Part shown: one piece after another, positions 41,039 to 45,006 of the stretch | How the letters are laid out: each line of letters starts with the position of its first letter | Numbering within the stretch: the first letter of the stretch is position 1 | Assembly (NCBI GenBank): GCA_947503155.1 | Contig: CANNCL010000001.1 | Coordinates: 186,001 to 250,000, forward strand | Direction: 5' to 3' | Origin: an uncultured Erythrobacter sp. | GTDB lineage: Bacteria > Pseudomonadota > Alphaproteobacteria > Sphingomonadales > Sphingomonadaceae | Length of the DNA: 64,000 bases | Program-made: the position numbers and the translations under genes | Notes under the pieces: generated by a model | What the model saw: only the letters and a program-made list of their open reading frames with translations | Databases searched by the model: none | Told to the model about the DNA's origin: nothing

Positions 41039-41833
41039 TCAAGGATTGATGCCGGTCACGATCCCTTCTTGAAGCCACCGGCCCAGCATCCCGCCCGCCC
41101 GCATCGCGGCATCTTGGATCGCATCTTGTGTGGGTTCTGTATCACTTCCGATCAGAACTCCGATCAATTCGGCGTAAGTCGCACCGCCTTGCATAGCGGA
41201 GAAAGCGTCGGCGTGATCGGCTTCGGCTATGATAAAGGTCGGCCGTTCACCTTCGCGCCAGACAAGGCAGGATTGCGGTGCAGGAAGTTTGGGATCAGGG
41301 CGATCCGCGTTTTCCTCACCCAGCGCCTGCCACAAAGCCGTAAGATTGTGGCTGACCAATCGCGCTGCGGCGCGCGGCTGAAATGAAAGGCGCAGCCCGC
41401 CCCAATCCTCGTCCCCAAATGCCGCAGACGCCGCCGCAAAATCCTCCGGCGTCATCGGCGCGGAATTCGGCGCCGTTGCCAAATCAAGCATCGTCCATTC
41501 AAGCCAAGCCAGCTCAGCAACTTCGGGATTGCCGGTGAACATCTGCGCGCAGGTTTCATCAAAACCCGCGCCCGCTTCATCAATCGTCCAACCCGATGGC
41601 GGATGCTTGATTGCATGGTTCATGCTCGCCTGACGAAAGGCTTTTTCTCCGGCATAGCGCGCCGTGCGTTCATAGGTTTCAGCAAGCGCGCCCATCAGCG
41701 CGGATCGGTAATTGCCCCGGTACACGGCCAATCCGGCGGTCTGGCGATTGCTCCAGCCATCCGGCAAAGGCGCGCCTTCGTCTAGGATCGCGCGCAGAAA
41801 CGCCTCTTGTCTTTCCGCAAGCGAGGCGGTCAT
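41039..41833 (-). CDS. bufC: bufferin-associated DUF2063 protein (BufC)
   Basis: The 264-residue protein has the N-terminal DUF2063 domain (QEAFLRAILDE, then LAVYRGNYRSALMGALAETY) and a C-terminal region with LPAPQSCLVWREGERPTFII. In MNIO clusters this partner brings the precursor peptide to the oxidase. Its start overlaps the bufB stop by 4 nt (ATGA), so the two are co-translated. The assignment comes from the family pair DUF692 + DUF2063 next to a DUF2282 gene. Confidence 0.88.
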   Translation of the reverse strand: MTASLAERQEAFLRAILDEGAPLPDGWSNRQTAGLAVYRGNYRSALMGALAETYERTARYAGEKAFRQASMNHAIKHPPSGWTIDEAGAGFDETCAQMFTGNPEVAELAWLEWTMLDLATAPNSAPMTPEDFAAASAAFGDEDWGGLRLSFQPRAAARLVSHNLTALWQALGEENADRPDPKLPAPQSCLVWREGERPTFIIAEADHADAFSAMQGGATYAELIGVLIGSDTEPTQDAIQDAAMRAGGMLGRWLQEGIVTGINP

Positions 41834-42705
41834 ACCTGCACCGGTTCGGACGCAGCGCCCGCGATCTGACCCGCAATGCCGCGCGCGCGTTCCAATTCGC
41901 TTAGCAGTTCGGGGAGCGGCGGGATGTGGTCATCACGCTCTATCATGGTTGCCGCCGGCTGCGGCAACATCGCCAGCGCCCGCTCATAGAGCGCCCACAC
42001 ACCATCGCTTACAGCGCGGTCATGTGTGTCGATGATGATGTCGCGTTCCGGTGTCGCTGGATCATGGCCCGCAAGGTGAATTTGGCGCACCCGGCCGAGC
42101 GGCAGGCCCGCCAGATATTCCTCCGCCGAAAAACCATGGTTCGCAGCCGATACATAAATATTATTCACGTCGAGCAGCAGATAACATCCCGTGCGCCGCG
42201 TCATCTCGGTCAGGAATTCCCATTCGCTAATGTCATCTTCTGGAAAAGTGAGGTAGCTTGATGGGTTTTCAAACAACATCGCGCGGCCCAGCACATTTTG
42301 TGCATGGTCGATATTACCGCACACCGCCTGCAACGCTTCTTCGGTTAGCGGCATCGGCAGCAGATCGTGCGAATTATGCGCGCTGGTTCGGGTCCAGCAC
42401 AAATGGTCTGACACCCAGAGCGGATCAATGCGCCGCTCAAGCCTTTTTAACTTTGCCAGATATTCAGCATCCAGCCCGCCCGCCGATCCAATCGACAAGG
42501 ATACGCCGTGGATGATGACCGGATACTTTTCGCGCACCTCTTCTAAAATGCGCAGCTGCCGCCCGCCTTCGATCATGTAATTTTCGCTGATCACTTCGAC
42601 GAAATCGACGGGGACATCGCGCGTCAAAAAGTCATCGTAATGCGCGCGCCTCAGGCCAAGGCCAAAGCCGCCAAAAGGTTCAATCGGATCGTACTCTATT
42701 GCCAT
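41830..42705 (-). CDS. bufB: multinuclear non-heme iron oxidase BufB (DUF692/MNIO)
   Basis: The 291-residue protein is a TIM-barrel MNIO enzyme: FGLGLRRAHYDDFL, DFVEVISENYMIEGG, VIIHGVSLSIGSAGG, SDHLCWT, FENPSSYLTF, LLLDVNNIYVSAANHG and IHLAGHD with the His/Glu/Asp metal ligands. MNIOs modify cysteines of bufferin precursors into copper-binding heterocycles. The ATG at 42705 is chosen; the frame is open upstream without similarity. A SigF-like promoter lies 90 nt upstream on the same strand. Confidence 0.92.
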   Translation of the reverse strand: MAIEYDPIEPFGGFGLGLRRAHYDDFLTRDVPVDFVEVISENYMIEGGRQLRILEEVREKYPVIIHGVSLSIGSAGGLDAEYLAKLKRLERRIDPLWVSDHLCWTRTSAHNSHDLLPMPLTEEALQAVCGNIDHAQNVLGRAMLFENPSSYLTFPEDDISEWEFLTEMTRRTGCYLLLDVNNIYVSAANHGFSAEEYLAGLPLGRVRQIHLAGHDPATPERDIIIDTHDRAVSDGVWALYERALAMLPQPAATMIERDDHIPPLPELLSELERARGIAGQIAGAASEPVQV

Positions 42706-42794: not shown

Positions 42795-42820
42795 TTCGTG
42801 CGTAGCGCAGGGCGCGTTAC
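42795..42820 (-). promoter_or_regulatory. SigF-type promoter for bufB-bufC
   Basis: On the minus strand GTAACG (42820-42815), then exactly 16 nt, then CGAA (42798-42795). This matches the Caulobacter SigF consensus GTAACC-N16-CGAA in 9 of 10 fixed bases and points at bufB. The consensus is recalled from the literature; activity is inferred. Confidence 0.68.
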
Positions 42821-42865
42821 AAAAATGCGCCTTTTCGGGGAAATGGCGAAGTTTTTGCCAAAAAT

Positions 42866-42891
42866 GTAACCACCGGCCTCAGCTGTGCGAA
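42866..42891 (+). promoter_or_regulatory. SigF-type promoter for bufA operon
   Basis: GTAACC (42866-42871), 16 nt, CGAA (42888-42891) is an exact match to the Caulobacter SigF consensus. It lies 61 nt upstream of the bufA start and points toward bufA-DoxX-sigF-nrsF, predicting positive autoregulation. Confidence 0.8.
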
Positions 42892-42952
42892 TGGGGGGAT
42901 AGAGCCGGCCAACAACACCGGCCCCGAACAGACAAGTTTTTGGAGAATTGTC

Positions 42953-43234
42953 ATGCAAGCCAAGTCAATCGCCGGGATCGCCGGTCTCGCACTCACCGCC
43001 AGCATCACTGCGGGCCTCGCGACCGCTCCTGTCTCTGCGCAAAGCACCAAAGAGAAATGTTACGGCGTATCGCTTGCCGGACAAAATGACTGCGCCGCAG
43101 GGCCGGGAACGAGCTGCGCCGGAACATCGACCCGCGATTATCAAGGGAATGCATGGAAGCTCGTCGACAAAGGCAGCTGCACCACTATCAATACACCTAA
43201 GGGCCGCGGTTCATTGACCCCGATCAACCGGTAG
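42953..43234 (+). CDS. bufA: bufferin precursor BufA (DUF2282)
   Basis: The 93-residue precursor has a Sec signal peptide (cleavage probably after about residue 29-30, PVSA/Q). The short mature peptide has four cysteines at 36, 47, 55 and 76 (KCYG, NDCA, TSCAG, GSC), the DUF2282 pattern. Bufferins are MNIO-modified copper-binding peptides exported to the periplasm. The MNIO and partner genes lie divergently upstream, and DoxX, sigma and anti-sigma genes follow. Start ATG has TGGAGAATTGTC upstream. Confidence 0.92.
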
Positions 43235-43260: not shown

Positions 43261-43288
43261 GCGGCCTGTCAGGCAAATAGCAGGCCGC
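43261..43288 (+). other. intercistronic hairpin between bufA and DoxX gene
   Basis: GCGGCCTG (43261-43268) and CAGGCCGC (43281-43288) form a perfect 8-bp stem with a 12-nt loop. A short T run (43297-43301) lies 8 nt beyond it, not directly after the stem. It could partially terminate or stabilise the bufA message, raising precursor levels over the downstream genes. Confidence 0.5.
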
Positions 43289-43313: not shown

Positions 43314-43787
43314 ATGAACGGAATTATGTCACTTTGGAATCGCATCACCGGCATGTTGTCGGGAACTGTGGTCGAGAGCATTGCGCTGCTTTTGACCCGC
43401 ATTGCGCTTGCTGGAATTTTTTGGCGGTCGTATAAAACAAAGGTCGAAGAAGGCACATGGTTTACCATCAACGACACGCAATATTTTCTGTTTGAAAATG
43501 AGTTTACCGGTCTGCCGCTATCGGCGGATCTGGCGGTGCCCCTGACAACTTACGCTGAATTCCTGTTTCCGGTTCTGCTGGTGATCGGATTGTTCAGCCG
43601 CTTTTCCGCTGCTGCGCTGATGGTGATGGCGTTGGTCATTCAACTGTTTGTATTCCCAACCTGGGATCACTTCTTCGGATGGGACATCACCGTGCTTGCC
43701 CTTGGCGCGATCATTGTCAGCCGCGGTCCTGGCCTCTTCAGCCTTGATGCGATCCTTGGCCGTGTCACCGGCTCGAAAGCTGCGTAA
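43314..43787 (+). CDS. DoxX family membrane protein of bufferin operon (BufD-like)
   Basis: The 157-residue protein has about four TM helices (near 20-38, 78-96, 98-115, 122-140) and the DoxX pattern LLLTRIALAGIFWRSYKTKV and PLTTYAEFLFPVLLVIGLFS. GAGGAGG lies 6 nt before the ATG. DoxX members are regular components of bufferin operons, presumably in membrane redox or export support; the biochemical role is not established. Confidence 0.86.
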   Translation: MNGIMSLWNRITGMLSGTVVESIALLLTRIALAGIFWRSYKTKVEEGTWFTINDTQYFLFENEFTGLPLSADLAVPLTTYAEFLFPVLLVIGLFSRFSAAALMVMALVIQLFVFPTWDHFFGWDITVLALGAIIVSRGPGLFSLDAILGRVTGSKAA

Positions 43788-43796
43788 GCATCTACA

Positions 43797-44327
43797 ATGG
43801 TAGCTGACGAACCCACCCTTGCCCGCCTTATGGCAGCAACACAGAACGGCGATAAAGCCGCCGGTAATGTGTTGCTGACCGAGGTGGGCGTTTGGCTGGA
43901 AAGATATTTCCGCCGCCGGGTGCCGCCGCATTCGATCGATGATCTGGTGCAAGATGTGCTGATCGCGTTTTACACGAAACGTGCGACATGGGACCCGGCG
44001 CGCCCGTTCTTGCCGTGGCTGGCCGCGATTGCGCGTTATCGGTGGGTCGACCACCTGCGCAAAGTGTACAAGCACGACAGCAAGGAATTGATGGAAGATG
44101 ACGCGGTAGAAGACAGCGAAGAAGAAGTTGTCCTAGCCCGCGTCAGTTTAGACCGATTATTCGGACAGATACCGGACAAGCAGGCCGAAGTGATCGAAAT
44201 GGTAAAAATCAGCGGATTGTCGATCCGCGAAGCCGCAGAAAAAACCGGGCAGAGCGAAAGCTTAGTGAAAGTGAATATCCATCGGGGCCTCAAGAAATTG
44301 GCCTCTCTGGTTGAGAAAGCAGATTGA
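43797..44327 (+). CDS. sigF: ECF sigma factor, SigF-like
   Basis: The 176-residue sigma factor has region 2 (SIDDLVQDVLIAFYTKRATW, then FLPWLAAIARYRWVDHLRKV) and region 4 (LFGQIPDKQAEVIEMVKISG, then SIREAAEKTGQSESLVKVNI). Its stop is directly followed by the nrsF start (1-nt gap). Together with NrsF and the GTAACC-N16-CGAA promoter ahead of the operon this matches the Caulobacter SigF metal-stress system. Confidence 0.9.
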   Translation: MVADEPTLARLMAATQNGDKAAGNVLLTEVGVWLERYFRRRVPPHSIDDLVQDVLIAFYTKRATWDPARPFLPWLAAIARYRWVDHLRKVYKHDSKELMEDDAVEDSEEEVVLARVSLDRLFGQIPDKQAEVIEMVKISGLSIREAAEKTGQSESLVKVNIHRGLKKLASLVEKAD

Positions 44328-44328
44328 A

Positions 44329-45006
44329 ATGACAGACCTCCCTCAAGACCCCTCAGATTCCGCGATGAGCAGAGATGATCTTATCGCCTCTCTCACTGAG
44401 GATCTGACCCCAATTAGGCGGGTTCGCCCTGTGGAAGGCATGGTCTTGATCGCCTTTGCGACGATCATTGCATCTGTGGCTTCGATCGCGGCCCATGAAT
44501 GGTGGGACGGCCTGCTGACAGGCGACGCATCGGGCTATTTCATCATCACGCACGGCCTGCTGCTGGTGCTGGGTGCAGCAAGCACCGCGGCGTTGGTTAG
44601 CGGCGCCCTGCCGCGTGTTGGTGCGCGCGCCAATGCCCCGTTATGGAGCGCGATTATGCTCGGCATCTTGCCGCTGGGCGCGATCATCAACTTGCTATCG
44701 GGCAATGGTGATCACGCGCGTGAGGGGTTGAACGATCCCGCCGCTTACATGTGCACGACGGCGTCTTTGGCTGCTGGTGCTTTGGTACTCGTCGCGGCGG
44801 TTCTGTGGCTACGGCGCGGCGCGCCTGTATCGCTTGAACGATCCGGCTGGCTTGCGGGCCTTGCGGCGGGGTCACTTGGCACGCTGGCTTACGGCATCAC
44901 CTGTCCGCTCGACACATTCTCGCATGTGGGATTGTGGCATGTTGCGCCGGTTGCGATTGGCGCAGTTGTGGGCCGATTGGTTGTCCCGCCCCTTATCCGC
45001 TGGTGA
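44329..45006 (+). CDS. nrsF: anti-sigma factor NrsF (DUF1109)
   Basis: The 225-residue inner-membrane protein has a short cytoplasmic N terminus (RDDLIASLTEDLTPIRRVRP) and six predicted TM helices, the NrsF/DUF1109 layout. Two cysteines, Cys142 (YMCTT) and Cys192 (ITCPLD), lie 50 residues apart. The Caulobacter homologue also needs two conserved cysteines for metal sensing. It should hold SigF inactive until heavy metal is sensed. A strong hairpin follows at 45076. Confidence 0.88.
   Translation: MTDLPQDPSDSAMSRDDLIASLTEDLTPIRRVRPVEGMVLIAFATIIASVASIAAHEWWDGLLTGDASGYFIITHGLLLVLGAASTAALVSGALPRVGARANAPLWSAIMLGILPLGAIINLLSGNGDHAREGLNDPAAYMCTTASLAAGALVLVAAVLWLRRGAPVSLERSGWLAGLAAGSLGTLAYGITCPLDTFSHVGLWHVAPVAIGAVVGRLVVPPLIRW

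Follow-up and report, generated by a model that had tools for sequence, protein, structure and literature searches.

Divergent SigF-type promoters of an Erythrobacter bufferin locus and their variation with a second precursor gene in relatives

Genes and promoters of the locus

The bufferin locus described here is found in the window, the 64,000-nucleotide stretch of an uncultured Erythrobacter genome that was analysed. Two arms point away from each other across a 247-bp bufB-bufA intergenic region, with bufB and then bufC on the minus strand, and bufA, doxX, sigF and nrsF, followed by ispG (Pfam GcpE), on the plus strand (Table 1). The locus combines a DUF2282 precursor that has four cysteines (counted on the translation; the signal peptide was judged by eye) with MNIO and DUF2063 proteins, as in Buf1 clusters, and its ECF sigma gene adjoins an NrsF-family anti-sigma gene, as in SigF/NrsF ECF systems. 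The bufB gene, read here from the ATG at 42705, shares 4 nt with bufC and is the single PF05114 (MNIO) match in the whole genome. NrsF reaches only 36.5 of 300 bits with the equivalog model AntiSigF_NrsF. Its residues C142 and C192, 50 residues apart, are invariant in all 24 aligned sequences (24 of 41 loci were used), and Caulobacter NrsF has a conserved cysteine pair, C131 and C181, with the same spacing. The closest locus on the tree, L092, is from an uncultured Erythrobacter (89% over 832 columns of BufB, SigF, DoxX and NrsF).

Table 1. Features of the bufferin locus, with positions in the window
Feature	Position	Strand	Description
bufC	41039..41833	-	DUF2063 partner protein; Pfam DUF2063 55.9 bits; NCBIfam HvfC only 22 bits (cut-off 142)
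bufB	41830..42705	-	MNIO maturase; Pfam MbnB_TglH_ChrH 350 bits; NCBIfam MNIO_BufB 370 bits (cut-off 310)
SigF-type promoter of bufBC	42795..42820	-	GTAACG-N16-CGAA, one base off; 89 nt upstream of bufB ATG
SigF-type promoter of bufA	42866..42891	+	GTAACC-N16-CGAA, exact; 61 nt upstream of bufA ATG
bufA 5' leader hairpin	42904..42922	+	GCCGG/CCGGC; z -2.46 in the window
bufA	42953..43234	+	Buf1-type bufferin precursor, 93 aa; Pfam DUF2282 87 bits; NCBIfam BufA2 only 19.7 bits (cut-off 60)
bufA-doxX intercistronic hairpin	43261..43288	+	UCAGGC loop; exact 8-bp arms
doxX	43314..43787	+	Pfam DoxX 49 bits; NCBIfam HvfX 38.7 bits (cut-off 80)
sigF	43797..44327	+	ECF sigma factor; Pfam Sigma70_r2 and r4_2; NCBIfam PRK12539 145 bits (cut-off 171)
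nrsF	44329..45006	+	Membrane anti-sigma factor; Pfam NrsF 115.6 bits (cut-off 26.8)

A sequence-only reading of this DNA had proposed an exact SigF-type motif on the plus strand ahead of bufA, a second motif one base off consensus on the minus strand ahead of bufB, and exactly 16 nt between the elements of both. Both motifs are present where they were placed and have this spacing, and their -35 elements are 45 bp apart. The consensus that the reading had used agrees with the printed Caulobacter SigF motif, GTAACC-N16-CGAA, which is supported there by 5'RACE start sites for CC2907 and CC3254 and by lacZ fusions (PMC3511200).

The pattern GTAACS-N16-CGAA matches the 64-kb window only at these two promoters (mean of 0.19 matches in 100 dinucleotide shuffles, none of which reached 2). 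When one mismatch to GTAACC-N16-CGAA is allowed, the window contains 4 matches compared with 2.23 expected, a count reached in 19 of 100 shuffles. The genome-wide motif search that had been suggested as a check yields 20 matches to GTAACS-N16-CGAA and 29 to a reversed control; the motif is thus not enriched, and its genome-wide count is ruled out as proof. Because the genome-wide and one-mismatch counts are near chance, the motif by itself lacks specificity, and it is raised above chance by its position and conservation.

Conservation of the promoters and of the wider motif set

NrsF is found in 53 of 61 same-genus genomes, the window's own included, and the locus of the best NrsF match was retrieved from 40 of the 52 others. 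Twenty-seven of these 40 loci are divergent with bufA and bufB, and together with the window they form a 28-locus genus set. The N16 motif faces bufA in 28/28 of these loci and bufB in 27/28, the exception (L068) having CGTA. Spacers of 10 to 15 and 17 to 23 nt give one match in total. Among 720 letter permutations of both elements, the true motif is present at 55 of 56 sites, the runner-up at 12 and the average permutation at 0.15; the runner-up appears to represent the same sites shifted by one base. The spacers diverge between species while the motifs stay. This conservation of motif, spacing and orientation supports the earlier proposal that SigF-type promoters face opposite arms, and makes it close to certain that the locus has two such predicted promoters, one per arm. 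In four of the 40 retrieved loci (L085, L087, L088 and L090), the genes are instead collinear, in the order bufA-bufB-bufC-doxX-sigF-nrsF or nearly so, and motifs are located ahead of bufA and ahead of doxX.

GTDB species genomes were scanned with a SigF alignment; of the 474 relatives detected, the best 80 (L092-L171) were examined. Their titles name Erythrobacter, Qipengyuania, Pontixanthobacter, Parerythrobacter, Altererythrobacter, Sphingomonas, Sphingobium, Croceicoccus, Pacificimonas, further MAGs and Microbulbifer (Gammaproteobacteria). Among these best 80, 67 have buf genes beside sigF, and 13 have sigF and nrsF only (L121, L124, L127, L134, L139, L149, L151-L153, L155, L160, L165 and L171). 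The 67 buf loci and the window make up a named set of 68 loci, which comes partly from the same contigs as the genus set. The motif GTAAC-N16-CGAA occurs on the bufA arm in 67/68 of the named loci, with an N15 spacer in the exception (L118), and on the enzyme arm also in 67/68, with CGTA in the exception. The 13 loci without adjoining buf genes have the N16 motif directly ahead of sigF in 12 cases, one of them as CGTA. In the remaining locus, L121, no N16 motif is found ahead of sigF; its twin L067 has N17.

The split layout had been taken as a departure from a single bufABCD operon. This is not so, because the divergent form is the usual one, present in 67/67 buf loci among the best 80 of 474 relatives. 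The claim is further amended by the collinear form found in 4/40 genus loci and by a second precursor gene, bufA2, that heads the enzyme arm in relatives.

Two side observations concern these relatives. An extra SigF-type motif is found 23 to 63 nt upstream of sigF in L105, L131, L133, L135, L138, L142 and L157, giving three promoters per locus. The entire divergent locus is also present in Microbulbifer (L161 and L162), and on a quick tree these gammaproteobacterial loci group with Qipengyuania, which makes horizontal transfer likely.

The 20 genomic motif matches were read for downstream genes; they comprise the window pair, six genes that were traced in the 61 genus genomes, and 12 other places. 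For orthologues in the top block of each search table, own gene included, a motif at most 400 nt upstream was counted. It precedes a periplasmic thioredoxin gene in 21/21 orthologues, a YHS-domain lipoprotein gene in 20/22, a gene for a second Buf1 (DUF2282) protein in 17/21, and a gene for a 199-aa membrane protein with no Pfam match (L292; own genome C1:107011-107607, minus strand) in 20/24. A DoxX-NDH fusion (L012) is a doubtful target, with the motif in 7/19 rows, all within the 15 that have E below 1e-200. For the orthologues of these five genes, the reversed pattern and the opposite strand each give 0. The thioredoxin gene is followed by a gene for a 239-aa DsbD_2/DsbD_TM protein, and in seven genomes of other genera in the family the motif lies at most 150 nt upstream of the thioredoxin gene in 5/7. 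A DsbD gene (L008) was rejected as a target, with the motif in only 4 of the 30 orthologues examined, from 58 genomes with a strong match.

The second DUF2282 protein in the window's own genome (L172; C1:949820-950167, minus strand) has a SigF-type motif and a lipobox judged by eye, and its gene is distant from the sole MNIO gene. The window's BufBC may modify it in trans.

A second precursor and the features that vary with it

The bufA2 gene heads the enzyme arm in 39/68 named loci, as called by tblastn with one BufA2 sequence. All six relatives' genes that were tested score 96 to 106 bits with NCBIfam BufA2 (cut-off 60). In the window, the bufB leader of only 89 nt leaves no space for bufA2, and no match was found elsewhere in the genome in a search that had no positive control. 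Presence of bufA2 changes two or three times on the trees, which were midpoint-rooted for drawing only and have no outgroup. Among the best 80 of 474 relatives, bufA2 is present in every buf locus sampled from Sphingomonas, Sphingobium, Parerythrobacter, Pontixanthobacter, Croceicoccus and Pacificimonas. This suggests, as the simplest reading, that bufA2 was lost in the window's lineage.

The sixth base of the -35 element differs between loci with and without bufA2. In the 39 loci with bufA2 (from the best 80 of 474), this base is C in 38 and T in 1 on the bufA2 arm, and G in 19, C in 14, T in 4 and A in 1 on the bufA arm, where L118 was left unscored. In the 29 loci without bufA2 (the same source, plus the window), the bufA arm has C in 28 and G in 1, and the bufB arm has G in 21, C in 6 and A in 2. 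These counts suggest that the base tracks bufA2: C is found on the bufA2 arm if that gene is present; if not, C is found on the bufA arm and the bufB arm appears to drift to G. Parsimony on the pruned tree with bufA2 (length 8.75) requires 10 changes for the bufA arm and 1 for the enzyme arm, compared with 1 and 7, respectively, on the pruned tree without bufA2 (length 5.33). Fisher's test gives p 0.0012 for both arms and, separately, 0.006 for the enzyme arm (clear) and 0.06 for the bufA arm; these values are approximate because at least one pruned set is not a single clade. With so few changes of bufA2 on the trees, its link with the base rests on within-group rates, and an independent-pairs test had too few pairs. 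G is rare at other SigF-type promoters (2/78 for four candidate target genes, and 1/7 for DoxX-NDH), so its occurrence on the bufB arm is unusual.

The residue that follows the catalytic Asp of MNIO enzymes has been linked to substrate class, with Asp at this position marking the Cys-Lys (BufA2) type (PMC13097082). In BufB, where this position was located by motif, Asp follows the putative catalytic Asp in 35/37 loci with bufA2 (best 80 of 474), and the 27 loci without bufA2 (the same source, plus the window) have Asp in 14, Glu in 9, Gly in 3 and Ala in 1; four loci were omitted because the motif is missing from their BufB piece. Parsimony gives 2 changes with bufA2 versus 7 without. These data suggest that a residue tied to bufA2-type substrates relaxes in bufA2-less loci. 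The four collinear loci have Thr or Ser at this position.

The bufA-doxX spacer is at least 50 nt long in 21/68 named loci, 20 of which are without bufA2. Twenty of these 21 spacers fold with z < -1 (mean -3.5), L100 being the exception. The sequence TCAGGC is found in 18/20 long bufA2-less spacers, and 17 of these 18 were aligned, with L100 omitted. In L104 and L106 a different, longer stem dominates the spacer. The loop of the 17-sequence alignment is invariant, as selected, and 68.7% of cells are paired. Stem covariation scores 0.38 compared with 0.18 in shuffles, none of 500 shuffles is as high, and slid versions reach at most 0.20. Judged from this alignment, a covarying hairpin is present downstream of bufA in the Erythrobacter clade. 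The other 9 of the 29 loci without bufA2 have short spacers that do not contain the hairpin, which therefore postdates bufA2 loss or was lost there.

Other identities were considered for this hairpin. A genome search that allowed up to three mismatches found the pattern once, which argues against a dispersed repeat, and copies with other stems would escape this search. Rfam contains no family that matches the hairpin; two sub-threshold microRNA matches inside sigF were taken as chance. No clear U-tract follows the stem, as judged by eye, so it was rejected as an intrinsic terminator and is better regarded as a protecting or insulating structure.

The potential 5' leader of bufA also includes a weaker putative hairpin, near the start of the message and more stable than in shuffled sequences. 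In the 28 genus loci, bufA leaders have a mean z of -1.97, with 21/28 below -1, and bufB leaders have a mean of -0.26, with 8/28 below -1. Pair counts in the bufA leaders give modest support (9/500 shuffles are as high), and RNAalifold predicted no pair on the same alignment.

Proposed control of the two arms and relation to known systems

The evidence is most consistent with paired SigF promoters that coexpress both arms, in a locus derived by bufA2 loss with weakening of the bufB promoter, an explanation that we hold with considerable confidence. Very probably, one metal-responsive switch turns on both a copper-binding peptide and its modifying enzymes, as their functions are predicted. Metal sensing in the window organism is assumed solely by analogy with Caulobacter, where copper induces the SigF regulon under all conditions tested as part of the core Cu response, and where a sigF::Tn5 mutant is copper-sensitive (PMC8224329). 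SigF would be released by NrsF, an event that Cu, Cr or Cd triggers in Caulobacter. SigF-bound RNA polymerase would then start transcription of the bufA-doxX-sigF-nrsF and bufBC arms, so that substrate and maturase would rise together, and SigF and NrsF would be replenished by autoregulation.

The ancestral locus would have been bufC-bufB-bufA2 / bufA-doxX-sigF-nrsF, with a precursor behind its own SigF promoter on each arm. After bufA2 was lost, the bufA arm would have retained the consensus -35 element GTAACC, and that of the bufB arm would have shifted to GTAACG. This latter element is probably weaker, which would leave precursor mRNA in excess of enzyme mRNA. The hairpins on either side of the bufA coding region would probably raise this excess through protection or insulation of the message. 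The different constraint on the sixth base and the hairpins at bufA are thus consistent with arms that are possibly expressed unequally, as the sequence-only reading had also supposed.

That reading placed sigF and nrsF in the bufA operon. Gaps of 9 nt between doxX and sigF and of 1 nt between sigF and nrsF fit this arrangement; the 79-nt bufA-doxX gap fits less well, because its covarying hairpin may reduce read-through to doxX. If the hairpin ended most bufA transcripts, doxX, sigF and nrsF would rely mainly on another promoter. The strong stem favors this possibility, as does the further SigF motif ahead of sigF in 7 of the best 80 of 474 relatives. However, a stem with no evident U-tract is a poor candidate for such a role, and the window has no GTAACS-N16-CGAA ahead of doxX or sigF, so we consider termination of this kind rather unlikely. 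The promoters might also be real and yet serve another sigma factor, in place of or besides SigF, which would then be one input among several. In Caulobacter, the sigF promoter responds to a second regulator (PMC3511200), and in one genus genome with no NrsF match (G007) the motif is retained ahead of the thioredoxin orthologue (L281). Against this, the motif stands directly ahead of sigF in 12/13 buf-less loci among the best 80 of 474. Another genome with no NrsF match (G002) has a YHS orthologue without the motif, but the same is true of G043, in which the system is present. On balance, control through another sigma factor is improbable.

The change could also have run in the opposite direction, with bufA2 gained several times and the window retaining an ancestral one-precursor form. 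The midpoint rooting without an outgroup is compatible with such gains. However, the uniform presence of bufA2 in the six sampled genera from Sphingomonas to Pacificimonas and the bufA2-type Asp that persists in BufB of 14/27 bufA2-less loci give repeated gain only a small chance. Finally, the two motifs could be chance matches, with other promoters driving the arms. The genomic count (20 matches, and 29 when the pattern is reversed) and the one-mismatch count in the window would allow this, but a fixed N16 on both strands of nearly every divergent locus despite diverging spacers, and the near absence of permuted motifs, make coincidence hardly credible.

The locus with paired SigF-type promoters resembles the Caulobacter SigF/NrsF regulon (CC3252-CC3257 and CC2905-CC2907), which has an ECF sigma factor with NrsF and the GTAACC-N16-CGAA motif, and whose targets also include DUF2282, DUF692 (MNIO), DUF2063 and DoxX proteins (PMC3511200, PMC8224329). 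By the published description, precursor, enzymes and DoxX form one unit in Caulobacter (CC3254-CC3257), and sigF-nrsF has its own promoter. In the window, by contrast, the enzymes form a divergent arm, and sigF-nrsF follows bufA and doxX. The gene content is also that of Buf1-type bufferin clusters, which have a four-Cys DUF2282 precursor, MNIO, DUF2063, DoxX, a sigma factor and NrsF (PMC12452194). That survey of MNIO clusters reports sigma and NrsF genes for Buf1 clusters, not for Buf2 clusters, and mentions tandem precursors. Unlike the Buf1 and Buf2 clusters it describes, 39/68 loci of the named set (from the best 80 of 474) have Buf1 and Buf2 precursors around one SigF locus. The gig operons, as described for Cupriavidus (PMC8224329) and Legionella (PMC5413113), contain homologous genes and are induced by Au or Cu. 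In the open-access literature searched, no paper was found to describe SigF and bufferin genes in this divergent arrangement, the combination of Buf1 and Buf2 at a single SigF locus, or a SigF-type bufferin regulon in Erythrobacter.

The relatives with bufA2 may represent a dual-precursor locus in which one MNIO enzyme serves Buf1 and Buf2 substrates under divergent SigF promoters, and in which loss of a substrate rewired promoter, enzyme and mRNA together. We give this broader proposal about an even prospect of being correct. The consensus promoter would shift to the remaining precursor, the selectivity residue of BufB would relax and, in one clade, the covarying hairpin with the UCAGGC loop would arise after bufA.

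The findings would extend the link between SigF and bufferins from Caulobacter to a group of sphingomonads and would place Buf2 precursors under SigF. They also predict further SigF targets: a periplasmic thioredoxin, which has a DsbD/CcdA-like neighbour, together with a YHS lipoprotein, another Buf1 protein and a membrane protein. Loci with and without bufA2 may serve as a natural experiment on what sets the balance between precursor and enzyme in the synthesis of a peptide metallophore.
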